Made by a program: the position numbers and the translations under genes. From NCBI RefSeq assembly GCF_004362825.1, contig NZ_SNXZ01000008.1, positions 1 through 64,000 of the forward strand: DNA of 64,000 bases, given 5' to 3'. Of the stretch, positions 35,723 to 49,408 are shown piece after piece; the first letter of the stretch is position 1, and each line of letters starts with the position of its first letter. Under the pieces are notes generated by a model that worked only from the letters and a program-made list of their open reading frames with translations, ran no database searches and had not been told where the DNA came from. Source of the DNA: Labedaea rhizosphaerae (GTDB taxonomy: Bacteria; Actinomycetota; Actinomycetes; Mycobacteriales; Pseudonocardiaceae).

Positions 35723-35925
35723 ATGTGTGCCGCCTGCGGAGTGCCGGGTCACGTCCCCGCTGCCGTCCCCGATGTCGTCGTGGAGTCGCCCGCCGCGCCG
35801 GCGGCCACCGCCGATCCGCCGCGCAAGTTCGCCGCCCTGCGCAACAAGGACTGCCGCCCGTACCTGTTCGGCGCGGCCCTGGCCATGATGGCCGACAACA
35901 TCGAGCACGTCATCACCTACTGGAT
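35723..35925 (+). pseudogene. 5' part of an MFS transporter gene cut by the integrated element
   Basis: The frame starts at ATG 35723 and encodes a Pro/Ala-rich leader and FAALRNKDCRPYLFGAALAM, running into TM1 (MMADNIEHVITYW). After the codon for Trp the frame enters the element and stops at TAA 35930-35932. The continuation, LWQTFHSPALTGFQVISHWV, is found at 48291. Joining both parts at the shared GAT gives ...ITYW-M-LWQTF... in frame, as expected for a DUF894/enterobactin-exporter-like MFS protein. The gene is thus split by 12.4 kb and cannot give a full protein. Confidence 0.9.
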
Positions 35926-35950
35926 CCGGTAAGCTCCACTAGCGCATACC
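35923..35950. other. attL: left attachment junction
   Basis: The host MFS codons end in TACTGGAT and the element begins CCGGTAAGCTCC. GAT at 35923-35925 is shared with the right junction and marks the crossover. The element-side arm, 35928-35950, ends in CGCATACC and is an imperfect inverted copy of the arm at the other end. The integrase start is 15 bp further, the usual place of attP for serine integrases. Confidence 0.82.
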
Positions 35951-35964
35951 GGGAGGCTTGGCCC

Positions 35965-37335
35965 ATGCCGGAACTGAACCCCGCCGTCGTCTACTACCGG
36001 AAGTCCATCGGCGATGATCACGACGTCGAGAAGTACGTCGTCACAACGTACGCCGAGCGACATGGCTTCGACATCAAGCTTGAGTATGTGGACGATGATA
36101 TCTCGGGACAGAAGAAGGATCGCCCCGATTTCACCAAGCTTATGAATGCGATCATGAGCGACGAACTACGTGGGTTCACCGTGTTGGTCCGAGACCAGGA
36201 ACGTCTATCGCGTGGCTCGTTGGCCGATCTGGAAGAGTGGCACCTCCAAACCGATGCAGGTGGCGTCAAAACGATCTCGTGCGAAGATGGCCGCGAAATC
36301 AAAGACGATGAGATCACCGGTATCCGAGCCGTCATCGCACGCGGTGCCGCCAAGCGGACAGGCGCGCTGCTCAAGAATCGCAAGAGGGCAGATGCCGCAG
36401 CCGGAAAGCCGCCCACCTCTGGCCGATACCGGCCGTACGGATACACCAAGAACTGGGAATCGATCATTGAAGAGGAGGCAGACATCCTGCGAGAAGCGGC
36501 CCGCCGCCTACTTGCAGGCGAGACGCTGCACGCCATCGCAAAGGACTTCACAGGGCGCCGCGTCATGATGCACACCGGTAACTCACTGACGTTGGCCGCA
36601 TTGTCGAGGATGCTACGGAAGCCGGAAAGGGCAGGCCTGCGCGTCCTCGGCGACATCACCGCCAAGGGAACCTGGCCCGCCATATTCCCAGAAGACACGT
36701 TCAACAAGATTCAGAGGCTTCTAGACAAGAACGACGCTTGGTACCCAACGAACGACGGTCGCCGAGCGGCGCGCAAGCACCTGCTGACCACCATTCTCTA
36801 CTGCCAGTGCGGTCAGAAGATGGTAGTGGGTTCACAACTTAAGAAGCTCCGCAAACGGACCTACCGCTACTACACCTACAGGTGCGCCGGGCGCGCTCAC
36901 GGCGGATGCGGCAAGGTAGTAACAAGCATGGACGCGGTAAACGACTACGTTCTCGGCAAGGCATACCTCGCACTAAAAGAGTACGTTCCGCAGGTCACAG
37001 AAGCGCCAGCCTCAGACAAGACGGAAGAACTAATTGCGCAATGCGAGGCAAAGATTCTTGAGACGCGCCAGGCGTACAACGACAACCTGGTTCCTCTTGC
37101 GGACTGGATAGCAGTAAGCAACGCGCAGCGTGAGAAGATCAAGGAACTCCGCAAGGTACAAGCGTCGAAGGACGCTCCTCTGCCGCTCAGCGACGCGGAC
37201 GCTCTACTGGCCGATGAGACACCGATCGCCAAAAAGACTGCCACCATCAGGCGACTATGGCCAGTAATCGAGGTCCTTCCAGCAAAACGCAAAGGCGCCG
37301 TCTTCCATCCCGATCGCTTGAAGTTTCCCGAGTAG
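35965..37335 (+). CDS. int: Large serine integrase
   Basis: A 456-aa large serine recombinase. The N-terminal resolvase domain has the nucleophile Ser14 in VVYYRKS, then VDDDISGQKKDRPDF, and VLVRDQERLSRG with the conserved Arg residues. A recombinase domain follows (GRYRPYGY...EADILREAARRLLAGETLHAIA), then a zinc-ribbon (CQCGQKMV ... CAGRAHGGCGKVV) and a coiled coil (TEELIAQCEAKILETRQAYNDN). It directs recombination between attP and attB in the MFS gene. ATG 35965; the open frame upstream is in the disrupted MFS region. It is at the short end of the family. Confidence 0.95.
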   Translation: MPELNPAVVYYRKSIGDDHDVEKYVVTTYAERHGFDIKLEYVDDDISGQKKDRPDFTKLMNAIMSDELRGFTVLVRDQERLSRGSLADLEEWHLQTDAGGVKTISCEDGREIKDDEITGIRAVIARGAAKRTGALLKNRKRADAAAGKPPTSGRYRPYGYTKNWESIIEEEADILREAARRLLAGETLHAIAKDFTGRRVMMHTGNSLTLAALSRMLRKPERAGLRVLGDITAKGTWPAIFPEDTFNKIQRLLDKNDAWYPTNDGRRAARKHLLTTILYCQCGQKMVVGSQLKKLRKRTYRYYTYRCAGRAHGGCGKVVTSMDAVNDYVLGKAYLALKEYVPQVTEAPASDKTEELIAQCEAKILETRQAYNDNLVPLADWIAVSNAQREKIKELRKVQASKDAPLPLSDADALLADETPIAKKTATIRRLWPVIEVLPAKRKGAVFHPDRLKFPE

Positions 37336-37350
37336 GTACCCTTCCTAAAA

Positions 37351-37397
37351 AGATGCAGCAACCCACGCGCTGCCATTTCGCATGGGTTGCTGCATCT
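37351..37397. terminator. Perfect 15-bp hairpin between convergent genes
   Basis: AGATGCAGCAACCCA (37351-37365) pairs perfectly with TGGGTTGCTGCATCT (37383-37397) around a 17-nt loop. It lies just after int and covers the stop codon of the opposite gene. A run CTAAAA on the left gives a TTTTAG tract for leftward transcripts. It is most likely a bidirectional terminator. Confidence 0.8.
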
Positions 37398-38160
37398 AGT
37401 TCTGCCTGCGCAGTTCACCAGGAATATTCCTGGCCCAGCTAACGTTGTTGGCGTCGGTGAACGAAACAACGATCCTCGCATGGTCAACAATATGCCAGTA
37501 GTCAAGGTCGGGGGTTAGATCAGCAATCTGATTAGCCACTGATCCGTGCGTCGTGGTCGCTCTACCCTCCCGTACCTTCTCAACTGCGCGCATGAGACGC
37601 AGATGGAAAGCGAACTTCTCCAGCTCGAAGCTTACTGCGTTGTCGGTCGGACCAAAGATTGGCTTGCGATAACTGTACCAGCCAATATTGCGCTCTCCAT
37701 CGACCGGCGACGAGAAAAACTGGACGTTGATTTGGACGTCATACACGGGTAGCGATCCACGATTGGATACCTTTATCGAGTACCACCCGGCGTCGATTCC
37801 ATCGGTGGTTCTCGGGAAGAATTGGCGCATCTCGTTAAACTCCATTCGATCAGAGTCCGTCGTAAGATTCTTATCGACCCACACACCAACTTTCGACGCC
37901 AACTCTTGTTCTTCTCTTTTCCGAATTCTTGCGGTTTCGCCGTCCGACCTTCTCCAGCCTTCTACGGCGATCCAGATGGCAGTAATAGCCGCTGCAATTG
38001 ACCCGAGGCCGCCGACCCATTGCCCCCACGCGGACCACCAATCGGCGTCTTTTCCCAACGCTATGCCGAGGGCAACTAGGAGAAGTGCGCCCGTCGCGAG
38101 CAAGAACGATACAAACATACTGTGGTGACCGCTACGCATGTCTCGATTATCGCAATACAT
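37396..38160 (-). CDS. Two-TM membrane protein of the element (unknown)
   Basis: A 254-aa protein. Two hydrophobic segments lie near the N-terminus, about 14-35 (SMFVSFLLATGALLLVALGI) and 47-67 (WVGGLGSIAAAITAIWIAVEG), followed by a basic, charged helix and a soluble domain of about 180 residues (WYSIKVSNRGSLPVYDVQINV beta-rich part). Short helical-hairpin membrane proteins of this layout are common in mobile elements; no function is known to me. Low GC and Arg/Lys codon use differ from the host. Downstream in-frame ATGs (codons 8 and 15) are alternative starts. Confidence 0.75.
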   Translation of the reverse strand: MYCDNRDMRSGHHSMFVSFLLATGALLLVALGIALGKDADWWSAWGQWVGGLGSIAAAITAIWIAVEGWRRSDGETARIRKREEQELASKVGVWVDKNLTTDSDRMEFNEMRQFFPRTTDGIDAGWYSIKVSNRGSLPVYDVQINVQFFSSPVDGERNIGWYSYRKPIFGPTDNAVSFELEKFAFHLRLMRAVEKVREGRATTTHGSVANQIADLTPDLDYWHIVDHARIVVSFTDANNVSWARNIPGELRRQN

Positions 38161-38258
38161 TCCAGTTTCGGCTAGGTCTAGGAGGCCCGCCGTCCCGGTG
38201 GATCAGGTCCATGCCGCTGAGGGTCTCCGGTAATGGCTCCCCGGAGACCCCTCAACAA

Positions 38259-38429
38259 TCAACGCAGGATGGTTCTGATGTCGCGGGCTTGCTGTTCGGT
38301 GAACCGCTCCTTAGCGAGCGCCCTACGCATGTGGTCCTCCCACTGCCAGCCCGGCCAGGTCTTCCGGCGCTCTTGGCTCTCGCTTGGTGGCTGCGGCATG
38401 TCATCGGAGCAATGTGGATCAGCCGTCAT
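38259..38429 (-). CDS. 56-aa protein coupled to the FtsK-like translocase
   Basis: A short gene, ATG 38429 to a stop at 38259, product MTADPHCSDDMPQPPSESQE followed by a basic, Trp-rich half (WPGWQWEDHMRRALAKERFTEQQARDIRTILR) that looks like an amphipathic helix. Its start overlaps the translocase stop by 11 nt (GATGACGGCTGA), implying translational coupling. Function unknown; perhaps a small accessory transfer protein. The 98 bp between it and the two-TM gene hold nothing clear. Confidence 0.6.
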   Translation of the reverse strand: MTADPHCSDDMPQPPSESQERRKTWPGWQWEDHMRRALAKERFTEQQARDIRTILR

Positions 38430-40920
38430 CGGCGGCCCCCGGCATCTCCGTGCCGTCGTCGGGGAGGGACCCGCCGCCACCCCGGGACGAGCCACTGTTT
38501 CCGGGGTTGCGGCGGTTGTCGGGGTGGTGCGTCCCCGTGGTCCCCGTCGCGTGTTCCTGCTGGTCAGTCCAGGGACTTTGGTCCGGGGAGGGTGCGGGGA
38601 GAACTCCCCGCGTCCCCGGCTGGTCCCCGTCCGCGTCCCCGGCAGCATCGCTGCCGTCTGCCTCGTCTCGGTGGGCGTGTTGGGCGCGGCGAGCGAGTGC
38701 AGCCGCGACGTCTTCGGCGTAGATCGCCTTGACTCCGCCGTGAGCCTTGCGAGCGGTGATGCCGTGGTCTGCGAGTGCGGCTGTGAGGTCACGGAAGGTC
38801 CATCCTTCGTAGTGGTCTGGGTTGTGTGTGGACAGTCGCGTCAGAACCACCTGAGTCCGTACGCGGCGTTCGCCTTGCATCACCTCGGCGATGTCGGCGA
38901 GGTGATCCGGCGCGACCGGTTGCGCCGGCTCGATCGCGGCCCGCGCGCTGGACGCCACCGAGTGGCCCGCGTCCTCGATCAGCGCCATGGCGCGGGCGAT
39001 GACCGGTGACACGTCGTCAGTACCGTCCTCAAAGGGCACGTAGAACGTGCGCACCAACTCGAACGTCTCATCGGTGATGCCAACGGCTACGCAGGTTCCC
39101 CTGTCGGTGTTGATGCGTAGTTCGGTGGCGCGGATACCGGCCGCGTACTTGCCACTGCCCAGGAGGCCGTCATTGGCTACCTGGTCGGCGACGCTGAACG
39201 CGACCCCGCAGGACACGTTGCGGGTGATCTCCCTGGGGATGCTGTCCTTTGTGGGCGATTGGGTGGCCAGCAGCAAGACGATGCCGTACTTGCGGCCGCG
39301 CCGGATCAGCCGCACGGCCAGCTCGGCGGCTTTTTTGCCGAACCGGTGGTGTTGGAACAACTCGTGACACTCATCGATTGCACACACCAACGGATGCAGG
39401 CCCAACCCTGGCTTGTCGGCGAGCTTGCGGGACACCTTGGGCGGGCGGCCCGGCTGCTCACCCAGTACCCGGCCCCGCCGCTCCATCTCCTCCAAGAGAT
39501 CGGCCAGCGCTTGGGTTGCCGCTTCGGCTACGGCGTCGTCTGCGCCCATCCGGTAGCGGGCCAGCCGGGGTTGGAAAGGGTCGAAGTCGGGTGACTCGCC
39601 CATCACGAACGCCCACAACTCGACGGTCAGGTCGAGCGCCGCACCCAACATCAGCGTCCGCAGCGCGGAGGACTTCCCTTGCCCCGGGCGACCACCAACC
39701 AACCAGTTCACACCGATGAGTGGGGCGTTGATAACCAGGCCGCGTTGGGTGAGTCCGAACGGCACTCCCTCGAACACATCGGACTGTCCATCATGGAGTA
39801 GAGGCCAGTCGCCGGCCGAACCGCGGAGCACCCCCTTATCGGCCACCCACAGGTCTAGGACTCCGTCCTCTTCTCCCTTGGTGGGCCAGGTTTCCAGACT
39901 TGCGCGGCCCAAGTTCGCGGCCAGTTGCGATCGTCGCCCGGCCACCATGTCAGCGGTCACCCCGAGGGGTAGCCGGATCTGCGCCGCCGTGCCGTCCCCG
40001 TCCTTGCGTGCCGGAACGGTGTAGACCAGTTCGCCGCCATCTTTGAAGAACTTGTTCAGTGGCGTGATGCCCAGGTGCGCGAGCGCGCGGGAGATCATCC
40101 GTTCGTCCACCCACGACCCCGCGTCGTCACGATCCGGTCGCACCAGCCAGCCCACACCGGGGGTGCGGTCGCGGCCCTCGAACGCCGCCGCCACCAACCA
40201 GCCCGTGAGCATCGCCAGCAGCAGCCACGGACCCGCCACCGACACGAACGCCACCAGCGCGTCCAGCGTGTCGTACACGCCTGCCAGCCACGGCCACATC
40301 TGCGAGCGGTCCAGCACCGCAGCGGTCAGCCACAACACCACCGCCAGCACCAGGACGACCACCGCCGTGATGCCGCTGCGATGCAGCACGATCCCCAACC
40401 GCGCCCACCGGGCCCGAGCGTCGGCCCGGATCGCCTCTTGCGCTTCCCGCCGCGCCTCCCGGTCTCCTGCGATGCGCGCGGCCCGCGCGTCGGCCCGGAG
40501 ATCGCCGTAGGTGAACCACGTCCACGCCTTGCCCAACCATCGGCCGTGCCCGCGTAGCGTGAACCACGCCAGCCGCGCTAGATCGGCTGGCGCCTTGCGC
40601 ACCCGATACGCCACTACGGTGCGCGCCTGCTGACCGGCCGGAGACCGCCACACCCGCCGCACCGCCGACACCACACGTCGGGTGGCCCGGCCGGTCAGCC
40701 CCACCGCACCGTTCACGGCCCACCGCCCCAGCACCCGCAACGCCACCACGACCGCACGGACCGCAGCACGCGGCGACTCCACCCCATCCCCGTGAACGCC
40801 ACCGTTCACGGCCAGCCCCGGCCGGCCGCCGGACTGGTCGCCGGACTGGTCAGCCTCGACGAACTCCCCGTCATACACCTTGGGTTCCAGCGGCCCGCCA
40901 TGCTCCTTTCGCGCTGTCAT
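38419..40920 (-). CDS. FtsK/SpoIIIE-type DNA translocase for conjugation (TraB/TraSA-like)
   Basis: An 833-aa protein. Two membrane segments are at about 180-205 (SGITAVVVLVLAVVLWLTAAVL) and 222-245 (AFVSVAGPWLLLAMLTGWLVAAAF). The motor has Walker A GGRPGQGKSS at about 405-414 and Walker B in LVCAIDECHELF, and the LLLATQSPTKDSIPREI segment of FtsK proteins. The C-terminal 130 residues hold a possible winged helix (WTFRDLTAALADHGITARKAHGGVKAIYAEDVA, gamma-like DNA reader) and a low-complexity tail. In actinomycete elements one such hexameric pump moves double-stranded plasmid DNA into recipients. It overlaps the Spd-like gene by 4 nt. Confidence 0.92.
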   Translation of the reverse strand: MTARKEHGGPLEPKVYDGEFVEADQSGDQSGGRPGLAVNGGVHGDGVESPRAAVRAVVVALRVLGRWAVNGAVGLTGRATRRVVSAVRRVWRSPAGQQARTVVAYRVRKAPADLARLAWFTLRGHGRWLGKAWTWFTYGDLRADARAARIAGDREARREAQEAIRADARARWARLGIVLHRSGITAVVVLVLAVVLWLTAAVLDRSQMWPWLAGVYDTLDALVAFVSVAGPWLLLAMLTGWLVAAAFEGRDRTPGVGWLVRPDRDDAGSWVDERMISRALAHLGITPLNKFFKDGGELVYTVPARKDGDGTAAQIRLPLGVTADMVAGRRSQLAANLGRASLETWPTKGEEDGVLDLWVADKGVLRGSAGDWPLLHDGQSDVFEGVPFGLTQRGLVINAPLIGVNWLVGGRPGQGKSSALRTLMLGAALDLTVELWAFVMGESPDFDPFQPRLARYRMGADDAVAEAATQALADLLEEMERRGRVLGEQPGRPPKVSRKLADKPGLGLHPLVCAIDECHELFQHHRFGKKAAELAVRLIRRGRKYGIVLLLATQSPTKDSIPREITRNVSCGVAFSVADQVANDGLLGSGKYAAGIRATELRINTDRGTCVAVGITDETFELVRTFYVPFEDGTDDVSPVIARAMALIEDAGHSVASSARAAIEPAQPVAPDHLADIAEVMQGERRVRTQVVLTRLSTHNPDHYEGWTFRDLTAALADHGITARKAHGGVKAIYAEDVAAALARRAQHAHRDEADGSDAAGDADGDQPGTRGVLPAPSPDQSPWTDQQEHATGTTGTHHPDNRRNPGNSGSSRGGGGSLPDDGTEMPGAADDG

Positions 40921-41903
40921 TGCAGGTCACCGCCCCTCAAGCCGCGGTTCCCCTCGTCCACAGTGGAACCAGCGCCAGCAGTGCCCGCCGTGGTGCCCGT
41001 TGTGGTGGCATCCGGCGTGGTCGCCCACGCGGTCACCGCCCGCGCCAGCCGCGACGACAACCCCCGCGAACACCCCGTGGCCTGCCGCACCCACGCGGGC
41101 GTGACCTCCACCCCCGGCGACCACGCGGCCCGCGCGTCGGCCAGGTACTCAGCGAACGAGGTCCGCACCCGCTCCGGCGCATCCGGGTTCGCCTCGGCCG
41201 GTGCCGCCTCGGCCCGGTCGGCAGGCTGCGCGTCGGCCGGCTGCGCGTCGGCGTGCGGGTCCGTGTGAACGGCGGTGGCGTGGTCGTGAACGGTGCCGTT
41301 CACGACCGTCCGATCCCGCTGCGCCTCCTGGTGTGCGCGGGTCGCCGCGCGGGTGAGCTGGTCGCGGACTTCGGTGATCGCCTCCGCTGCCACGAACACC
41401 ACCAGCGGCGGGATCGAGTGCAACACGATCGCGGCCAGATCACCGCGTTCGTAGGAACCCCACGTGTTCATCAGATACGTAGCGGCCAACGTGAACCACT
41501 TCGCGCGCCGCACCCACCGCCCGGTCGGCACCTGGTAGCGAGCGGTGATCTGCTCAGCCCGCAACAGGGCCACCAAGACGACCGACACCGTGGGGTCGAG
41601 CACCCACGCCGCCAGCCACGACAGCGACCCCACCGCAGCGCTACCGGCCGCGAACTGCTGGACGTTGGTCATCGTGAACGCCAGCGCCAGCACGACCCCG
41701 GCCCAACACATCCGGTCCACCTGCGAACGGACCTGTTCCACCCGCAACGCGATCACGTCCGGGTCGGTCTGCCACCCGCGTAGCTCCGCCGCGTCGGCCG
41801 CCATCGCCGCCGGCCGTGCACCCCGGCTCACCCGCCCGCCGCGACGTTCACGGCGGCTATCGGTGCGGCGTTCCCGGCTCTGAGATGCCCGTAGAGCGTT
41901 CAT
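40917..41903 (-). CDS. Spd-like multi-TM transfer protein
   Basis: A 328-aa membrane protein. After a basic N-terminus there are about four hydrophobic segments between 65 and 175 (MCWAGVVLALAFTMTNVQQF, SLSWLAAWVLDPTVSVVLVALL, LAATYLMNTW, LAAIVLHSIPPLVVFVAAEA), the pattern of DUF2637/Spd proteins encoded beside TraB in mobile elements. The C-terminal half is soluble, Ala/Asp-rich, with a helix-turn-helix-like segment TPAWVRQATGCSRGLSSRLARAV. Spd proteins help plasmid spreading inside mycelium. ATGA overlaps join it to both neighbours. Confidence 0.75.
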   Translation of the reverse strand: MNALRASQSRERRTDSRRERRGGRVSRGARPAAMAADAAELRGWQTDPDVIALRVEQVRSQVDRMCWAGVVLALAFTMTNVQQFAAGSAAVGSLSWLAAWVLDPTVSVVLVALLRAEQITARYQVPTGRWVRRAKWFTLAATYLMNTWGSYERGDLAAIVLHSIPPLVVFVAAEAITEVRDQLTRAATRAHQEAQRDRTVVNGTVHDHATAVHTDPHADAQPADAQPADRAEAAPAEANPDAPERVRTSFAEYLADARAAWSPGVEVTPAWVRQATGCSRGLSSRLARAVTAWATTPDATTTGTTAGTAGAGSTVDEGNRGLRGGDLQ

Positions 41904-42292
41904 CGGGCACCACCCCGCCGCCTACCACCCGACCGGCCCCGCCCGTGCACGTCGCGCACGTCCAGCGTCGTGACCGTCAATGCGCGGGTGAGCACGAACG
42001 CGGCGAACAGGTCCGGCAGCGCCAGCACCGCCAGCAACACCCGCGTGTCACCGGGGTGGCTGATCACCACCCACTGCACGCCCACCAGCAGACCGGCCGT
42101 GAACACCACCCGACCCGCCAGCGACACCAACCGCGCCCCGGCCCGTGCCCTGTCGGCAGCAGCTCGGGCCCTACGCGCCGACCAGCGCCACACCATCAAC
42201 GCCAGCAACAGCACACCGATACCGGCCAGCAACGCCGTAGGCGTCACCGCCACCACCGGGGTCTGTTCGGACGCCGTAATCGTCGGCACCAT
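41900..42292 (-). CDS. Small Spd-like membrane protein
   Basis: A 130-aa protein starting MVPTITASEQTPVVAVTPTA, with three hydrophobic segments (LLAGIGVLLLALMVW, LAGRVVFTAGLLVGVQWVVI, VLLAVLALPDLFAAFVLTRAL) and a basic Arg/Gly-rich tail (HGRGRSGGRRRGGAR). The start ATG shares its G with the WhiB stop codon region (TGATG). Size and place between WhiB and the larger Spd gene suggest another spreading protein of the transfer operon; no specific function is known. Confidence 0.68.
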   Translation of the reverse strand: MVPTITASEQTPVVAVTPTALLAGIGVLLLALMVWRWSARRARAAADRARAGARLVSLAGRVVFTAGLLVGVQWVVISHPGDTRVLLAVLALPDLFAAFVLTRALTVTTLDVRDVHGRGRSGGRRRGGAR

Positions 42293-42639
42293 CACCGACC
42301 GCCCCCGTTCCCAGGGATGGCGCGGCGCGCCGCCCACACCGGGTACAGGGCGCGCCGGTCGGTTTCGTTCAGCGCACCCCACACACCCACCGTCACCGGG
42401 CCAGCGGTACGCAACTCCAATTCCAAACACTGCGTACGTACCGGACACCCTGCACAGACCCGCGCCGCCAACTCACGATCGGTGGTCGGGTCATTCAGCC
42501 ATTGCGGCGGTACGTTCTCGACGTAAAGGCGCATACACGACCCGTCCCGCACAACTACCGAACTCAGAACATCATTCGGTACATCGCGGAACCGGTCCAA
42601 CTCCGCCGCGACATCCTCTAGCGACTCGTAATCAGTCAT
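42292..42639 (-). CDS. WhiB-like Fe-S regulator of the element
   Basis: A 115-aa WhiB-like protein. The four cluster cysteines are C35, C62, C65 and C71 (GSC; VCAGCPVRTQC), followed by the beta-turn GVWGAL (85-90; usual G-[VI]-W-G-G, here Ala for the last Gly) and a basic C-terminus. WhiB proteins bind a [4Fe-4S] cluster and act with sigma factor region 4. It probably controls the transfer operon in which it lies, between the excisionase-like gene and the Spd genes, with 1-nt overlaps. Confidence 0.88.
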   Translation of the reverse strand: MTDYESLEDVAAELDRFRDVPNDVLSSVVVRDGSCMRLYVENVPPQWLNDPTTDRELAARVCAGCPVRTQCLELELRTAGPVTVGVWGALNETDRRALYPVWAARRAIPGNGGGR

Positions 42640-42899
42640 CAGGCGTCACCACCCTTGACCGACTTCACAAGGCGCCGGTTAATCACCGCAGCCGGAATCA
42701 TCGACCGCGACCGGCGCCGCACAACAGGGATCAAACCCACGCGAACATCGCGGGCAACCGCATCCACGGAAACGCCGAGAAGCCACGCGGCCTGCTTGAT
42801 TGTGTAAAAAGCCGGACCATTGGCCGGCGTCTGGTTAATCATGACTTGTTTAGTCCCAACTACTTGGTTCCGATCCGCCGGTCGGCGAACCGTCGCCAT
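42639..42899 (-). CDS. xis: Excisionase-like small helix-turn-helix protein
   Basis: An 86-aa protein. FYTIKQAAWLLGVSVDAVARDVRVGLIPVVRRRSRSMIP (about 31-69) is a MerR/excisionase-type winged helix (HTH_17 pattern). Such proteins next to serine or tyrosine integrases are recombination directionality factors; here it is distant from int, first gene of the leftward transfer operon. ATG 42899 or the internal ATG at codon 20 could start it. It could alternatively be a transcription factor for the operon. Confidence 0.65.
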   Translation of the reverse strand: MATVRRPADRNQVVGTKQVMINQTPANGPAFYTIKQAAWLLGVSVDAVARDVRVGLIPVVRRRSRSMIPAAVINRRLVKSVKGGDA

Positions 42900-42993
42900 C
42901 TAGTAAGGACGCAAAGCTGCGGGACACTAAATCAACATGGGAATGCCTTTGATTCTCGGCGCGAATATCCCCAGCTCAAGCCCACAAAAGAAC

Positions 42994-43026
42994 GGCGGCG
43001 ATATTCTCAGAAAGAATATCGCCGCC
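42994..43026 (-). terminator. Rho-independent terminator after the Nudix gene
   Basis: GGCGGCGATATTCT (42994-43007) pairs perfectly with AGAATATCGCCGCC (43013-43026) around a 5-nt loop. On the minus strand the stem is followed by GTTCTTTTG, a T-rich tract, so it ends transcripts from the leftward Nudix/XRE genes before the xis promoter. The rest of 42900-43126 holds no gene and must contain the promoter of the transfer operon. Confidence 0.8.
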
Positions 43027-43126
43027 TGGTTATTCAGATGGAGAATACTGGAACCGACTAGGACCTGTTGCCCGTCAAGTCGCTACACAACTTCCGCAGG
43101 TCAGAGCCATGATCGGGCCTCCTGGG

Positions 43127-43663
43127 CTAGCCATCGCACAGCCGCATGTGATGCAGGAGCAGCAGGGCGGCAACCGCGTTGGCGCTCCTGATCTCGCCCT
43201 TGTTCACGAGGTCAGGCACTCTCCGTAGACTGACCCATTCACGGCGGCCCGACTCGAAGTCATCTTCTGGGTGGCCGACGTACGTGGCGCCGTCAGCCCA
43301 ATACACATGGTGAAGCGCGTCCGAGAGCCCGTTAGACGGCTCAATCGTCATCAGAGGATGCAGGACGCCGGCCCGCCAACCTGTCTCCTCTAGGAACTCG
43401 CGCGCCGCCGCCTGTTCGACAGTCTCTGTGTTCTCCACGACGCCCGCTGGTAGCTCCCAGCCTGACGTGTTGGTAATGAACCTGTGCCGCCAGAGCAGAA
43501 GAACCTCATTCGCATCATTAACGGCGGCTGTCAGAGCAACTGCTCTCTGCCGAATGACGTAATGATCAAGGTGCCGACCGTTCGGCAACTCGACATCCGC
43601 CAGGTTCACCTTGAACCACTGGTTCTCGTAAACTGGCTTCTCTTCCAGATTCTTCCATTCCAC
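43127..43663 (-). CDS. Nudix hydrolase, possible Pif-like transfer immunity factor
   Basis: A 178-aa protein with a perfect Nudix box from Gly74 to Trp96 (G-x5-E80-x7-R88-E89-x2-E92-E93-x-G95). The N-terminus (MEWKNLEEKPVYENQWFKVN) is that of ADP-ribose pyrophosphatase-like members. The Streptomyces element pSAM2 encodes a Nudix protein, Pif, that blocks redundant transfer between carriers; the same place in an element with a TraB-type pump suggests that role here (inference). It lies 25 bp after the XRE/TPR gene in a leftward unit ending at a strong terminator. Confidence 0.88.
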   Translation of the reverse strand: MEWKNLEEKPVYENQWFKVNLADVELPNGRHLDHYVIRQRAVALTAAVNDANEVLLLWRHRFITNTSGWELPAGVVENTETVEQAAAREFLEETGWRAGVLHPLMTIEPSNGLSDALHHVYWADGATYVGHPEDDFESGRREWVSLRRVPDLVNKGEIRSANAVAALLLLHHMRLCDG

Positions 43664-43688
43664 GAATAAACCTTCCGTAACGGCCTGT

Positions 43689-45143
43689 CTACAAGATCAG
43701 CCTGACAGCGCTGTCTATCCTATCGAGCGCATCTCGGCTCACACTCGTAGGGCTGTTTGCAAGCTCGTTCCTCAACCGCACGAACCGGCTGTTGAGCCGA
43801 CGAGACTCCATGCCTTGCGCGCTATCCACCATCTCGCAAGCCAGCAGAGAAGCGCGCTCGATTTCACCCCGAGCGACCTCCAACGTCGCCAAGGATGCAA
43901 GCTTGTTCACCTTGCCCCGGGGATGCCCCTCGCTCGACAAAGAAAGCTCGGCATATCGCTGTGCTTCGTCCAAATCGCCCAGGTAACTCAACGCCTCGGA
44001 GAGTTGAGCCAATATATGCCCTTCCTGAACGTAGCTCGCCTCCGCAAGGCTCTGATCTTTGGACAGTTTATTAAATTCCGACTCTAGACCGACGACGATA
44101 AGCTTAGCGTCAGCCTTGTTACCGAGAGATGCAAGCGCTTTAGCCCTCATGACTTGAAGGTCAACGAGGAGTGCTGTAGGGGGCGCCTTAGAGCAAGCGT
44201 CCAAAGCAGCCTCAGCGAGCGTTTGGGCGGCCTTATAGTTTTCAAGGGCCAACGCCTGATTGACCATCAACGCTAGAACATATGCTTTGAATCCGTAGTC
44301 ATGAGACCTTTGCGCAACCATTAGGGCGCGCTTGAAGTGGCCCTCTGCGGCAGTCCAGTCTTCAGAGTCATAAGCGCATATGCCAGCTAGGGCAATCAGA
44401 CCCCCAACGGCACGTTGGGACCTGGCTTGGTCAGCCTCGGAACCTCCAAAGCTAGCCAGCAGCGGCAAAGCCTGCCTGGCCAAGAACTGCTCCACACGAG
44501 CACCCGCAACTAGGCCACCGGAGGATCGGTACATCCGCTCGAAATGAGAACGAGCATTGATTAGTTGCTGCGGGCTGGAGCTTGATTCGCCAAGCAATGA
44601 ATCCAGGCTTGGAGCTGCAAGCAAACCATTCCGGTTCGATCGCGAAGATATCCCCGCGGACAGAACAAGGTCAACCGCGGTTGGGACACTAATTCGTGCC
44701 CGTACTCTGCTTTCGCCCGGAAAGTCGAACCAAAGCATTTCGCGCGGGATATGCAGGATATCGGCATACCGCCGGCATGCCTCTATATTCTCTTCTGGAT
44801 TACCGTTCTCAAGCTTTGATATCTGGCCTTGATTCAGGCCCAGCCACCGGGCCAGCACATCTTGGCTCAGGGCTCTACCGCGAAGCTGTAGATGACGAGG
44901 ATGATTCCGGTAAACCTTGATTACCCGTCCAATGTGCTGGCTCTCGAACGCAGCGATGAACGCGTCGGTTCGCCAGAAGTCATCGCCCAGGTTCACCGGC
45001 GGGGTTGCCAACTGGTCTTGCTGGTCGTGATGGCAATGCCAACAGAGACGGCCTGTGTTATCGGCGGCAAGCAGTGAGGAGCACCCGGCGCAGCGACGCC
45101 CGTCCACCGCGCGCTCCTTGGCGCGGCCAGCTCGTCCGGCCAT
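43689..45143 (-). CDS. Zinc-ribbon XRE regulator with TPR domain
   Basis: A 484-aa regulator. A zinc ribbon (C18-x2-C21 ... C34-x2-C37) precedes an XRE helix-turn-helix (ALSQDVLARWLGLNQGQISKLENGN, residues 91-115). The rest is a TPR-like helical solenoid (GICAYDSEDWTAAEGHFKRALMVAQRSHDYGF, and later units), as in regulators that read peptides or other signals. ATG 45143 is chosen over an upstream ATG because of the AAGGGGG site. It is paired with the Nudix gene and diverges from the cargo genes; it likely decides between quiet and transferring states. Confidence 0.87.
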   Translation of the reverse strand: MAGRAGRAKERAVDGRRCAGCSSLLAADNTGRLCWHCHHDQQDQLATPPVNLGDDFWRTDAFIAAFESQHIGRVIKVYRNHPRHLQLRGRALSQDVLARWLGLNQGQISKLENGNPEENIEACRRYADILHIPREMLWFDFPGESRVRARISVPTAVDLVLSAGISSRSNRNGLLAAPSLDSLLGESSSSPQQLINARSHFERMYRSSGGLVAGARVEQFLARQALPLLASFGGSEADQARSQRAVGGLIALAGICAYDSEDWTAAEGHFKRALMVAQRSHDYGFKAYVLALMVNQALALENYKAAQTLAEAALDACSKAPPTALLVDLQVMRAKALASLGNKADAKLIVVGLESEFNKLSKDQSLAEASYVQEGHILAQLSEALSYLGDLDEAQRYAELSLSSEGHPRGKVNKLASLATLEVARGEIERASLLACEMVDSAQGMESRRLNSRFVRLRNELANSPTSVSRDALDRIDSAVRLIL

Positions 45144-45256
45144 CCCGTCCCCCTTGGCGTGCCCCTGCAAGCCTCTGACCAGCGTACACAGCGTGGCTGA
45201 CACCCGCCATCCGGTTGATCAGCGGGCGGAAGCTCCCAGCGGGCGGGTAGAGATAT

Positions 45257-45271
45257 TCACCGGATGAATGA
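45257..45271. promoter_or_regulatory. Palindrome in the divergent cargo/regulator region
   Basis: ATTCA-CCGGA-TGAAT is a perfect inverted repeat at 45257-45271. It lies in the 216-bp gap between the leftward XRE/TPR gene and the rightward Imm1 gene, as expected for an operator of the XRE protein. The same gap has a direct repeat GCGGGCGG (near 45218 and 45239). Confidence 0.4.
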
Positions 45272-45359
45272 CGGCATTCTCAGATTGATTGGCCTCCTTT
45301 GTATCGGCGCCCGTGAACTAGTCCGGTGATGTTTCCGAGAGCCCAAACCGGATGGCCAG

Positions 45360-45836
45360 ATGAACCCGCCTAACGCAAGCCGTGACGATCGCCTCATAGT
45401 CACGGCTGCCTTGACAACACGCGTGGTCCGCGTGGCTCGCGGACGTGACGCAGCTATCGAACTAGTCGATGAAATCCTCAGCATGGACCACCGGGACCGG
45501 GAAACGTCGCTCTCAATAGGTGACGTCGAGTTTTACCAATCAAAGACAGGTGGCCCTTTTCCGAACCACCAGTTTCGCCTAAGTGTCAGACCATCGTCTG
45601 CGGTCGGTGCATGCAACTACATCGACAACCTAGACCTGATAATGCCGGTGGCCTATTCATGGAATCCCGACAAATCGTGGCCCGACGTCGATCTCATCCT
45701 GAACGGCTCGACGGGGGCGGTGTTTCCTCCATGGTCAGTCATTTCGATTGACGATGTCTGTCGATCCCTATTGGAGTGGCTCGATACCCAAAAGCGCCCG
45801 ACATGCATCCAATGGCGCCCCTCGGAACTTTGGTGA
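45360..45836 (+). CDS. Imm1-family immunity-like protein (cargo)
   Basis: A 158-aa protein. The C-terminal half has the Imm1 signature: NYIDNLDLIMPVAYSW, then VFPPWSVISIDDVCRSLLEW and RPTCIQWRP, matching FPPgs.i.ideVr.aL.eFl.TG.RPtcvqW. Imm1 proteins protect against polymorphic toxins. No toxin is recognisable next to it or elsewhere in the element. It opens the rightward cargo block. ATG 45360 has only a weak ribosome site, so the start is uncertain. Confidence 0.72.
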   Translation: MNPPNASRDDRLIVTAALTTRVVRVARGRDAAIELVDEILSMDHRDRETSLSIGDVEFYQSKTGGPFPNHQFRLSVRPSSAVGACNYIDNLDLIMPVAYSWNPDKSWPDVDLILNGSTGAVFPPWSVISIDDVCRSLLEWLDTQKRPTCIQWRPSELW

Positions 45837-45856
45837 CGAGAGAGAGGACCGTCCCG

Positions 45857-46285
45857 ATGTCTTATGGTGATCCCCTGCCGTCTGACGAGTGGGCTTGCAA
45901 CCGTATTCACTGGCATGCGTTCAAGGGTCGACGGATCGGTCCCAGTGTGCTGGAATCCCACAAGGATTCACGAAGTGAGCGCGGTTGCCTGACCGAACTC
46001 AGCCCAGATTCAGTGATTAGGGATCCATGGGCCGTGGCGGAATGGCTGGACGCACAGGTTCATGCGCAACCCAACCGTCAGGCAATTTGGCTGAGCGGCG
46101 GCGATGGCTGGATTCATGTTTCCGAATCGGATCTGGCTGAGATACGCAGGCACAACGCGCGAGTTGCCGCTACCGGCATGTCTATTGAACTCACCTTGTG
46201 CTGCGCGGATAGATACATCGATCTACGCGCCGAGGCGGTTGACGCCATCGTGTGTTCGTTGCACGGACGACACGCAGCGGGATAG
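45857..46285 (+). CDS. Cargo protein, paralogue A of a tandem pair
   Basis: A 142-aa soluble protein, MSYGDPLPSDEWACNRIHWH. It shares an order of motifs with the 160-aa protein at 46488: IHWHAF versus VHWHAY; DPWAVAEWLDAQ versus SPREVEQWIDKQ; SGGDGWIHVSESDLAEIRRHNARVAATGMSI versus AGSEWVRVGDEADLAHLRRANYRIACRGDSI. Two diverged copies of a gene of unknown function, probably with an alpha/beta fold. The start follows GAGAGAGGACC. It lies 20 bp after the Imm1 gene, whose family often has such companions. Confidence 0.75.
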   Translation: MSYGDPLPSDEWACNRIHWHAFKGRRIGPSVLESHKDSRSERGCLTELSPDSVIRDPWAVAEWLDAQVHAQPNRQAIWLSGGDGWIHVSESDLAEIRRHNARVAATGMSIELTLCCADRYIDLRAEAVDAIVCSLHGRHAAG

Positions 46286-46299
46286 CCGGAGAGGGCGCC

Positions 46300-46488
46300 A
46301 TGCTAACCCTTGCGGACAAACACTGCGTACAAGTGACGATCGTATTCGTTGCATTTGGCGCAATAGTGGTGCTCTGCGTTCTGGCCGCCACCTTCCCCAA
46401 GCTACTCAAGCGCAGAAAGACGTTTCGGGAGACCATGACTAACGACCCGCTGTACCGGGAATTCAAGGAGAGCGGGGCAAAGGTTTGA
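46300..46488 (+). CDS. Single-TM small protein
   Basis: A 62-aa protein with one transmembrane helix (VQVTIVFVAFGAIVVLCVLAATF, residues about 9-31), then a basic stretch (PKLLKRRKTFRE) that would face the cytoplasm. The ribosome site CCGGAGAGG precedes ATG 46300. It sits between the two paralogous cargo genes and overlaps the second one at its TGA. Unknown function. Confidence 0.68.
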   Translation: MLTLADKHCVQVTIVFVAFGAIVVLCVLAATFPKLLKRRKTFRETMTNDPLYREFKESGAKV

Positions 46489-46967
46489 TGACCCGATTCC
46501 CGAACGAACGGATTACCGGTACCGAAACTTTAGGTCTAGCAATGACCTCTGAAGATAACCCGTTTGCCGACCTCGACTCTTGGCGCGAACTCGGTGTGCA
46601 CTGGCACGCATACATGACAACTCGACCGCGCGGAAAATCGCCACAACCAGGGCAAGGCGTAGGCGACCGCGACAAGCGTCTCGCACAAACGCCATTGGCT
46701 GTACTGCGCAGCCCGCGAGAAGTCGAGCAATGGATCGATAAGCAGACACGCGAGTACGTCGAGCCAGTAGAGGTCCGCGCGGGCAGCGAGTGGGTGCGTG
46801 TGGGCGATGAGGCTGACCTCGCGCATCTGCGACGGGCAAATTACCGCATCGCGTGCCGAGGCGACTCGATTTATACCGACATTTATTCCAGCTCGACACA
46901 CCATGACCTCTACGTTGAATCGGTGACCGATGACCAGTGCACCAACACTGCTTGCAAGAACGTCTGA
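46488..46967 (+). CDS. Cargo protein, paralogue B of a tandem pair
   Basis: A 159-aa protein related to the 142-aa product at 45857 (shared HWHA, EWL/QWI and RRxNxRxAxxGxSI motifs in the same order). A Gly/Pro/Lys-rich insert (RPRGKSPQPGQGVGDRDKR) follows the HWHA motif. ATG 46488 overlaps the TGA of the single-TM gene; TTG 46485 is an alternative start. Internal ATG at codon 19 (MTSEDNPFADLDSWRELG) would align best with the start of the paralogue and could be the real one. Confidence 0.7.
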   Translation: MTRFPNERITGTETLGLAMTSEDNPFADLDSWRELGVHWHAYMTTRPRGKSPQPGQGVGDRDKRLAQTPLAVLRSPREVEQWIDKQTREYVEPVEVRAGSEWVRVGDEADLAHLRRANYRIACRGDSIYTDIYSSSTHHDLYVESVTDDQCTNTACKNV

Positions 46968-47127
46968 AATCACATTCGGGCCAGACAGGGCAGCTCCATT
47001 CGACATCTCAGAAAGCGGAACTGCACCGCCGACATGCGGCAACTGTCCCTCAGGTGGAAACCATGCACCAATTCCGGTGCAAGGCAAGAATTACAACGAG
47101 TGCGCCAAATGCGGTCAGCGCTGCTGA
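46930..47127 (+). CDS. Putative small zinc-ribbon protein
   Basis: A 65-aa frame whose C-terminal half reads PTCGNCPSGGNHAPIPVQGK ... ECAKCGQRC, that is CxxC and CxxC pairs about 20 residues apart with a final Cys, the pattern of a treble-clef or ribbon zinc site. It overlaps the end of paralogue B by 38 nt. The N-terminal part looks unstructured, so a later start is possible. Another overlapping frame (46937-47143) lacks the cysteines. Confidence 0.45.
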   Translation: MTSAPTLLARTSEITFGPDRAAPFDISESGTAPPTCGNCPSGGNHAPIPVQGKNYNECAKCGQRC

Positions 47128-47161
47128 TGCCGAAACCCACTGAGCGAAGGTCCTAGCAGAG

Positions 47162-47413
47162 ATGCCGGAACAAGACCCCACTGAATTTCGACGGATTGAT
47201 TCGGAGCTGATGGAGGACGTATCGCTTGTCAACGGCTCGTTGGGAAGCTACGTCATTCGTCTGATCTCCGCGATCAGAGGAGAGCACCGCGCCGAAATGA
47301 AGCCAACAGACGAGCACGACTTGGGGTCACTACTCATAGAGCTTGGCGAGCGAATCAAAGAGCGAGCCAGTCGCCGATGGGAATCTCCGGCGACGGATAA
47401 GACCGTTGATTGA
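47162..47413 (+). CDS. Small helical hypothetical protein
   Basis: An 83-aa protein, MPEQDPTEFRRIDSELMEDV, highly charged and helical (SLLIELGERIKERASRR). No cysteine or membrane segment. A purine-rich GCAGAG precedes ATG 47162. It follows the putative zinc-ribbon gene in the cargo block; no family recognised. Confidence 0.55.
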   Translation: MPEQDPTEFRRIDSELMEDVSLVNGSLGSYVIRLISAIRGEHRAEMKPTDEHDLGSLLIELGERIKERASRRWESPATDKTVD

Positions 47414-47457
47414 CGTCCCAAACGAACCAGGACTGTCCGGTTTCATTAATAAGCTGA

Positions 47458-47560
47458 CTATGTGACACCGTTCTTCATGCGAGTGTGGCGCTCGCGTCAC
47501 ATAGCCGATCCCTGGCGGCGGCGGGCGGCTTTTGTTGCCTTTCGGACCCGCCGCTGCCAG
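47458..47560. other. Two strong adjacent hairpins in a non-coding stretch of the element
   Basis: Hairpin 1: CTATGTGAC (47458-47466) pairs with GTCACATAG (47496-47504); inside, GCGAG (47479-47483) pairs with CTCGC (47491-47495), leaving a 12-nt bulge on one side. Hairpin 2: CTGGCGGCGGCGGG (47512-47525) pairs with CCCGCCGCTGCCAG (47547-47560) with one G-T pair and a T-rich 21-nt loop. The region 47414-47584 has no gene. It could be the transfer locus (clt/oriT-like), a replication or packaging site, or a leader/attenuator for the 60-aa gene at 47585. Confidence 0.5.
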
Positions 47561-47584
47561 CGGGTCTCGACTGAGGATAACTAA

Positions 47585-47767
47585 ATGGCTTGGGGCAAGT
47601 CGAACAAGGCTAGGTCAGATGCCGAGCGCGACATGCGTAGAGAAGGGTTCATCAAGAAGAAGTGCCCTCCGCACGACACGGAGGAGATCTACTCCAACGT
47701 GTTGCCTGGATTTGTGAATGTGACTTGTAAAGATTGCGGCAAAGTGGTTGACCTAAGGCGCGCCTGA
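47585..47767 (+). CDS. 60-aa zinc-ribbon-like protein
   Basis: MAWGKSNKARSDAERDMRRE, then FIKKKCPPHDTEEIYSNV and NVTCKDCGKVVDLRRA: a CxxxH ... CxxC set that could bind one zinc. The N-terminal half is basic and helical, suggesting nucleic-acid binding. ATG 47585 follows CTGAGGATAAC. It is directly downstream of the two strong hairpins and may be controlled by them. Function unknown. Confidence 0.65.
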   Translation: MAWGKSNKARSDAERDMRREGFIKKKCPPHDTEEIYSNVLPGFVNVTCKDCGKVVDLRRA

Positions 47768-47823
47768 CCAAGTGCTTGAACTTCTAGAGTGTCCTTTACA
47801 GGACATGGCGCTACCGTTGCTTG

Positions 47824-48231
47824 GTGACAGACGATCGCTCTACAAGCCACACCTGGGCAAGCGGTAACGCACGCGCTGATGGCGCCTCACACGGCGGTTG
47901 GTGGTACGGGCCATACATACCCGACATCCCGCACGACGCAAGCGCACCGGAAATCAAATGGGGAGAGCACCCCGCAGGGCACTCACGGCCGGACGGATGG
48001 GCATCCGGCCGTTCGGCGTCCGGTGCCCCCGCATGGACCGTCACGATGCTTGAGGCAGGGCGTTTCTGCATCCTGGTACCGGACGCGTCAGTCGTCCTCT
48101 GTCGCCCTGGTGACTACCTGGTCATCCCTCCCGGCATGACGCACACGTGGCGGGCCCAGGACGACTCCACGGTTCTCACCGTCCGCTGGCCTGCCGACGA
48201 CGAGAGTCAGCCCATGTATCCAGCACTGTAG
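47824..48231 (+). CDS. Cupin-fold protein at the right end of the element
   Basis: A 135-aa protein. The C-terminal half is a cupin: TMLEAGRFCILVPDASVVLCRPGDYLVIPPGMTHTWRA, with the PGD and PPGxxHxW motifs of cupin_2; only some metal ligands are conserved, so it may bind a small molecule instead of a metal. The N-terminal 60 residues (HGGWWYGPYIPDIPHDA...) are specific. GTG 47824 is chosen, with TTG 47821 as alternative. It ends 33 bp before the attR arm. Confidence 0.78.
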   Translation: MTDDRSTSHTWASGNARADGASHGGWWYGPYIPDIPHDASAPEIKWGEHPAGHSRPDGWASGRSASGAPAWTVTMLEAGRFCILVPDASVVLCRPGDYLVIPPGMTHTWRAQDDSTVLTVRWPADDESQPMYPAL

Positions 48232-48263
48232 CCGCGCGGAGCGGGCGTTTGCGCAGGTCGATT

Positions 48264-48290
48264 GGTATGCGTTAGTCGTGCTAACATGAT
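48264..48290. other. attR: right attachment junction
   Basis: The element arm starts GGTATGCG (48264-48271) and runs to CTAAC (48281-48285). The shared GAT is 48288-48290, after which the MFS gene resumes with GTTGTGGCAG. GGTATGCG is the exact inverse of CGCATACC in the left arm (35943-35950), so the circular form would have an attP with inverted arms around ATGATCC. Confidence 0.82.
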
Positions 48291-49408
48291 GTTGTGGCAG
48301 ACGTTCCACTCGCCCGCGCTGACCGGCTTCCAGGTGATCAGCCACTGGGTGCCGTTCCTGTTGCTCTCGGTCTACTTCGGCGGGCTCGCCGACCGGCACG
48401 ACTGCCGCCGGGTCATCCAGGCCGCGCAAGGGCTGTTCATGCTCGTCTCGGTGTTGTGGGGCGTGCTGTTCCTGACCGATTCGCTGCAGGTCTGGTCGGC
48501 GTGCGTGCTGCTGGTGCTGCACGGCTGCGCGGGCGCGATCTGGAGCCCCGCGGAACAGTTGATGCTGCACGACTTCGTCGGGACCAAGGACCTGCCCAGC
48601 GCGGTCCGGCTGAACGCGACGTTCCGCAGCCTCGGCATCCTCTTCGGCCCGGTGGTCGGCTCGGCGTTGCTGCTCGGCCTCGGCCCGACCGGCGGGATCT
48701 TCGCCAACGTCGCGATCTACCTGCCGCTCACGCTCTTCTTGTTCCGCACCAAGTTCACCGGGCACACCCGCGACCACGGCCCGGCCGCGGGTCGGCCTGT
48801 CCGAGGCGATCCGGGTGCTGCGGGAGGTCGCCGCCAACCACACGCTGATGTGCATGATCATCCTGGCCGGGCTCGGCTCGTTCTTCGTCGGCGCGTCGAT
48901 GCAGGCGGTGATGCCGACCTTCGCCCAGGATCTCGGCGGGGACGACGCCGGCACCGCCTACGGCGTGCTGCTGTTCGCGGCGGGCGCGGGCGGTGTGCTG
49001 GGCGGTCTGCTGCTCGAGGCGACCGGCCGGATCAAGCCGAACGTGCCGGCCGCGGTGGTCAGCACGGCGATCTACGGCGCGAGCACGCTGGTCTTCGCCG
49101 TCGTCGGCAACTTCCCGCTCGCCGTGGTGATGCTGCTGATCGGCGGCGTCGCGAACCTGGCGTCGATGTCGATCAGCCAGACCGTCGTGCAGCTGCTCGC
49201 CCCGCCCGCCGAGCGCGGCCGGGTGATCGGCGTGTACGGCATGTCCGCCAACGGGTTGCGCGCGGGCAGCGGGTTCACCGTCGGCCTGCTCGGCGCGGCG
49301 GTCGGGCTGCACTGGTCGCTCGCCCTCAGTGCCGTGGCGCTCTGCGTCGGCACCGCGGCGGCCGCCGTCTACGCCTGGCGCGGCCGCGACCGGGCGCTCA
49401 CGACATGA
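48291..49408 (+). pseudogene. 3' part of the disrupted MFS transporter gene, with a frameshift
   Basis: Codes LWQTFHSPALTGFQVISHWV onward through TM helices (LLLSVYFGGLADRHDCRRVIQ has the MFS loop motif) to about 48790. The frame then shifts by one near 48780-48800: GPAA should be followed by RVGLSEAIRVLREVAANHTL, found in another frame that runs to TGA 49408 (...YAWRGRDRALTT). So besides separation from its start this half has lost one base, or the assembly has an error in a run of G and C. It is related to EntS-like MFS exporters. Confidence 0.88.

Follow-up and report, generated by a model that had tools for sequence, protein, structure and literature searches.

How a transporter gene of the MFS family came to lie in two pieces 12.4 kb apart, and what the DNA between them is, are the questions raised by this locus, which was studied within a window of 64,000 nucleotides (the whole stretch of DNA that was analysed). 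Very probably, the intervening DNA is an AICE-like element whose serine integrase recombined a 52-bp attP with an attB in the MFS gene, with the exchange at the dinucleotide AT. The sequence evidence for this reading consists of both junctions, the uninterrupted site in orthologues, an attP whose dyad is centred on the junction, the domains and motifs of the integrase and a gene set shared with related elements. The features concerned are collected in Table 1.

Table 1. Features of the integrated element and of the interrupted MFS gene (positions in the window).
Feature	Position	Strand	Remarks
MFS 5' part (...EHVITYW and first bases of next codon)	35723..35925	+	Collinear with intact orthologues
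attL: chromosomal half-site, GAT, element left half-site (CCGGTAAGCTCCACTAGCGCATACC)	35899..35951
Crossover dinucleotide AT, left copy, within GAT	35924..35925		Dyad centre
Integrated element, 12,365 bp	35926..48290
Large serine integrase, 456 aa	35965..37335	+	PF00239, PF07508, PF13408; YxRKS and RDQxRLxR motifs
Predicted 254-aa protein, N-terminal hydrophobic stretch	37396..38160	-	Weak PHROG match of unknown function
FtsK/SpoIIIE-type DNA translocase (TraB-like), 833 aa	38419..40920	-	61-69% identical in four related elements
Spd-like membrane protein, 328 aa	40917..41903	-	Putative name, no Pfam match; conserved in related elements
Membrane protein, 182 aa (Spd-like)	41900..42448	-	Conserved in related elements
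WhiB-family regulator	42292..42639	-	PF02467
Small HTH protein, excisionase-like; candidate directionality factor	42639..42899	-	phrog_66
NUDIX hydrolase; candidate Pif-type conjugal immunity factor	43127..43663	-	76% identical in L046
NsdA-family HTH-TPR regulator	43689..45203	-	NF053720 above cut-off
Imm1-family protein	45360..45836	+	PF14430
Uncharacterised ORF, 160 aa	46485..46967	+	No Pfam match
Cupin-like protein	47821..48231	+	Weak match; 39% identical in L042
attR: element right half-site (GGTATGCGTTAGTCGTGCTAACAT), GAT, chromosomal half-site	48264..48315
Crossover dinucleotide AT, right copy, within GAT	48289..48290
MFS 3' part	48291..49408	+	Frameshift near 48775-48800

The split transporter gene and its empty site

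The MFS gene, which starts with an ATG at 35723, is interrupted by an element of 12,365 bp (35926-48290). Its left fragment reads ...EHVITYW and, past the junction, ends with IR and a stop codon; here, the 5' part of the gene runs up to ...CACCTACTGGAT (35925) and is followed by CCGGTAAGCTCC. At the right junction, the element ends with GTGCTAACATGAT (48290), then GTTGTGGCAGACG follows, and the right MFS fragment begins LWQTFHSPALTG at 48292. The trinucleotide GAT is common to both junctions (35923-35925 and 48288-48290), with a repeat unit of 12,365 bp, and the two fragments joined at this GAT read ITYW-M-LWQTF, in frame. The shared trinucleotide and the in-frame fusion bear out the initial annotation, which had placed the element within the MFS gene and defined both of its junctions. 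The proposal that attB lies in a protein-coding gene and not in a tRNA gene also holds, as the MFS gene is split and no tRNA gene was found in the window; Rfam likewise gave no match there. Within the host assembly, neither an empty attB nor a joined attP was detected. The assembly contains no second close MFS copy either, so the two fragments do not derive from different genes. At attR (48285-48295), the element half-site gives ATGATG in frame with LWQTF, from which a truncated MFS protein could in principle be translated.

Orthologues were sought in whole genomes with the 161-aa right fragment as the query. Five close orthologues from outside the host genus (82-87% identity in this search) pass straight across the site, reading ITYWVLWEKF or ITYWVLWERF (with LTYWV in the case of L005), and ITYWVLWQTF is also read across the predicted junction in intact orthologues. 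In a larger set of 113 loci from many actinobacterial genera, some of which represent the same genome reached twice, (I/L/V)TYW-x-LW is uninterrupted in 112, and none of the 113 presents an insertion at the site. The uninterrupted MFS protein that the initial annotation had suggested looking for in related genomes is therefore found, running through the predicted junction in all but one of these loci. The remaining one (L138) carries a small frameshift a few codons from the site; its short match had been considered as a possible insertion, which was rejected on reading. The LWQTF version of the host occurs in 13 orthologue loci (as LWQTFH in 11 and as LWQTFQ in 2). No second copy of the element at the MFS site was found among the samples searched. 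Since the genome sample contains no other member of the host genus, and no element-free strain of this genus or species, the precise sequence of the host's ancestral attB is a reconstruction. A short match in genome G409 also resembled a possible insertion in the MFS gene.

Symmetry of attP and the crossover dinucleotide

When the element ends are joined, they give GGTATGCGTTAGTCGTGCTAACATGATCCGGTAAGCTCCACTAGCGCATACC, a 52-bp imperfect inverted repeat in which 20 of the 26 arm positions are paired and whose dyad centre falls exactly between the A and the T of GAT. The dyad score is 19/25 at this centre, compared with 5 and 4 at the centres one base to either side and 3-8 at neighbouring centres. 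Centring on GA rather than on AT was rejected on this basis (5 versus 19). When 200,000 random joins were made at a shared trinucleotide, 5 reached 19/25, and a value of 20/26 occurs at only one of the ~64,000 positions of the window. Since cleavage by serine integrases takes place around the dinucleotide at the centre of such a repeat (PMC3642061, PMC5937489), the position of the attP dyad identifies AT as the crossover, and presumably as the point of cleavage. The junction had previously been assigned to the shared GAT as a whole; the GAT is indeed present at both ends, but the assignment is refined in that the crossover corresponds to AT, the G being an extra matching base. Nor does the junction lie elsewhere, a prospect that the initial annotation had raised against itself, given the strong attP dyad centred in the shared GAT. 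The symmetry of attB is weak (11/26, a level met by ~11% of window positions) and is not counted as evidence. The locus thus presents the ~50-bp imperfect-repeat attP adjoining int, with a central dinucleotide common to attB, that goes with a large serine integrase, and the junction of the circular form is predicted to read GCTAACATGATCCGGTAAGC.

In the proposed mechanism, the large serine integrase would have recombined the 52-bp attP, which lies close upstream of int, with attB within the MFS gene. Strand exchange at the AT in the shared GAT would have taken place with no base lost or gained, and the transporter, cut after its ITYW motif, would have been inactivated. The dyad-centre method could be checked on a related element in locus L044 (genome G581), whose integrase is ~37% identical and which was mapped in the same manner. 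This yielded a 13,848-bp unit with a shared TG, an attP symmetry of 19/28 centred on TG, and a fused attB that reads TGDFIADGIVSHNC-FARNTHTYLDLDS (protein SHNC-FARNTHTYL), a clean empty site in an intein-containing radical SAM gene of the Rv2578c family. The method therefore yields a sensible dinucleotide and empty site when applied to an independent element.

At the crossover codon, 105 of the 113 orthologue loci have GTG and three have CAG, while ATG, ATC, GTC and TTC occur once each; the one other locus is frameshifted. Either the attB of the host carried the rare ATG allele (Met versus the usual Val, GTG), or both junctions have undergone conversion of a core mismatch. The prevalence of GTG speaks for this second alternative, according to which the element inserted at an ordinary Val codon and the AT at either end derives from the attP core, which replaced the mismatched bases after the exchange. 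It is nevertheless unlikely, because matching core dinucleotides have been reported as essential for serine integrases (PMC5937489, PMC4111918) and because the ATG allele is present in one orthologue (L129), so that an ATG-bearing host is possible. Under the preferred reading, exchange at an AT already present in attB, the rare ATG codon would restrict the range of suitable hosts if AT is required.

Since AT is self-complementary, insertion should be blind to orientation, a prediction made from the one copy known. A tentative extension of this is that the integrase naturally uses a self-complementary AT, so that attP and attB could be joined either way and the element could insert both ways round, unlike characterised serine integrases, in which an asymmetric core fixes polarity. 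No report of a natural palindromic core was found in the literature searched, the coverage of which was partial. If AT is confirmed as the core, the element would offer a naturally occurring case in which to ask whether the central dinucleotide alone sets orientation.

Gene content, class of the element and state of the locus

The integrase gene starts 40 bp from the left junction, and its product is presumably the protein that made the insertion. PF00239 and PF07508 score above cut-off, and PF13408 (zinc-ribbon) reaches 24.8 bits, just under its cut-off of 25.3. The catalytic motifs are intact, with Y10, R12, K13, S14, R76, R80 and R83 invariant among seven integrases. Relatives above 43% identity were absent from the order, family and class samples searched; the class-wide search gave nothing below an E-value of 1e-50 except the window itself, and single-protein scans of genome contigs and viral contigs yielded no close relative. 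Among the matches listed from phage and plasmid records, identity was ~35% or less, and the alignment scan of viral contigs returned one distant match (L158, 34% identity). This new integrase with resolved att sites, whose protein-gene target is conserved across many actinobacteria, could serve as an integration-site resource. The host genome also encodes three further distant serine recombinases (G000:C2:1251302-1252567, G000:C4:353480-354337 and G000:C1:1928395-1928736).

From the perspective of its class, the element presents two features of AICEs, a site-specific integrase with defined att sites and a TraB translocase of the FtsK/SpoIIIE type (PF01580 at 2.8e-10), which probably transfers double-stranded DNA. 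The small HTH protein is a candidate excision factor, and the NUDIX protein may provide conjugal immunity. Among the ORFs scanned, no Pfam or NCBIfam match to a replication initiator (RepSA, RepAM or Prim-Pol) was found, a divergent Rep being possible, and for this reason the element is called AICE-like rather than an AICE. The Imm1-family gene also occurs in sister elements (47-50% identity in L044, L045 and L046), and no partner toxin was recognised for it.

The element could instead be a prophage or a prophage remnant, given that its integrase matches a phage integrase family (phrog_95) and that WhiB and Xis-like genes occur in actinophages too. This is improbable, however, because no virion structural or packaging gene (capsid, portal, terminase or tail) was recognised in the 12.4 kb, the matches to phrog_15528 and phrog_2666 correspond to the NUDIX and FtsK domains, and the FtsK/TraB-like translocase, the Spd-like genes and the NUDIX gene are common to the sister elements.

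Finally, the right MFS fragment lacks a continuous reading frame: it starts in the frame of 48292 and, after a shift near 48775-48800, continues in that of 48815-49408. This frameshift, near 48790, is either a second lesion, independent of the insertion, or a mistake of the assembly within a GC-rich run; as a lesion, it could reflect decay after inactivation or be older. Such a frameshift might be expected in a poorly assembled region, but that the locus is an assembly chimera, or holds two unrelated gene fragments rather than one split gene, is highly improbable, because the two fragments jointly cover a single orthologue protein without gap or overlap, the assembly lacks another close MFS copy that could supply one of them, and joining the element ends gives an attP whose dyad centre falls on the junction.

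Sister elements and known systems

The AICE-like element belongs to a group in which FtsK, Spd-like, WhiB and Xis-like genes are conserved. The translocase is 61-69% identical in four sister elements, and most of the module is found again across these elements and L044. Their targets differ. In L033, the sister integrase adjoins a 5'-truncated pirin gene (L033:4404-5006), whereas the L044 element immediately follows the C-terminal end of the intein (SHNC) in its radical SAM gene (L044:1044-2288, L044:15984-16877), with left junctions in L042 and L048 that match the one in L044; in L045, the element or its integrase lies in or adjoins a CMD/AhpD-family gene. Among these relatives, both junctions were resolved only in L044, and the dyad scan did not resolve the element ends of L045 and L046. 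Protein-coding genes thus look like the rule as targets in this group, in which one conserved transfer module is directed by different integrases to different protein-coding genes.

Serine integrases commonly have their attB within a protein-coding gene (PMC5937489, PMC3218068). Among AICEs, 19 of 144 use serine recombinases, some of them in protein-coding genes (Ghinet et al. 2011, PMC3218068), and NUDIX genes such as pif are common (PMC3218068). The serine-recombinase AICEs resemble the present element in being small actinobacterial elements with an integrase, an FtsK/TraB-like translocase and a Pif-like NUDIX protein (PMC3218068), although here no replication initiator was recognised and the target is an MFS gene. 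The phiC31 and phiBT1 integrases also inactivate a protein-coding gene (the pirin homologue SCO3798 and SCO4848, respectively) by recombining at a core of 2 bp within an imperfect inverted repeat (PMC5937489). The pirin-type target of phiC31 (PMC5937489) recalls that of the L033 sister element. The present element differs from both in its MFS target, and its core appears to be the self-complementary AT, compared with GT for phiBT1. The phiJoe/SCO2603 elements (PMC5311408) are likewise serine-integrase elements in a protein gene, in their case a radical SAM gene, with an attP adjoining int and a crossover central in an imperfect inverted repeat, but their core is GG, their radical SAM gene is not the one used by the L044 relative, and the integrase is different. 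Similarly, Bxb1 has an attP of ~50 bp with partial symmetry, a central dinucleotide crossover and a protein-gene target (groEL1) (PMC3642061), but its central dinucleotide is asymmetric and fixes orientation (PMC3642061). Insertion of serine-integrase elements in protein genes is therefore known, and the MFS target and the apparently symmetric two-base crossover are the new details.
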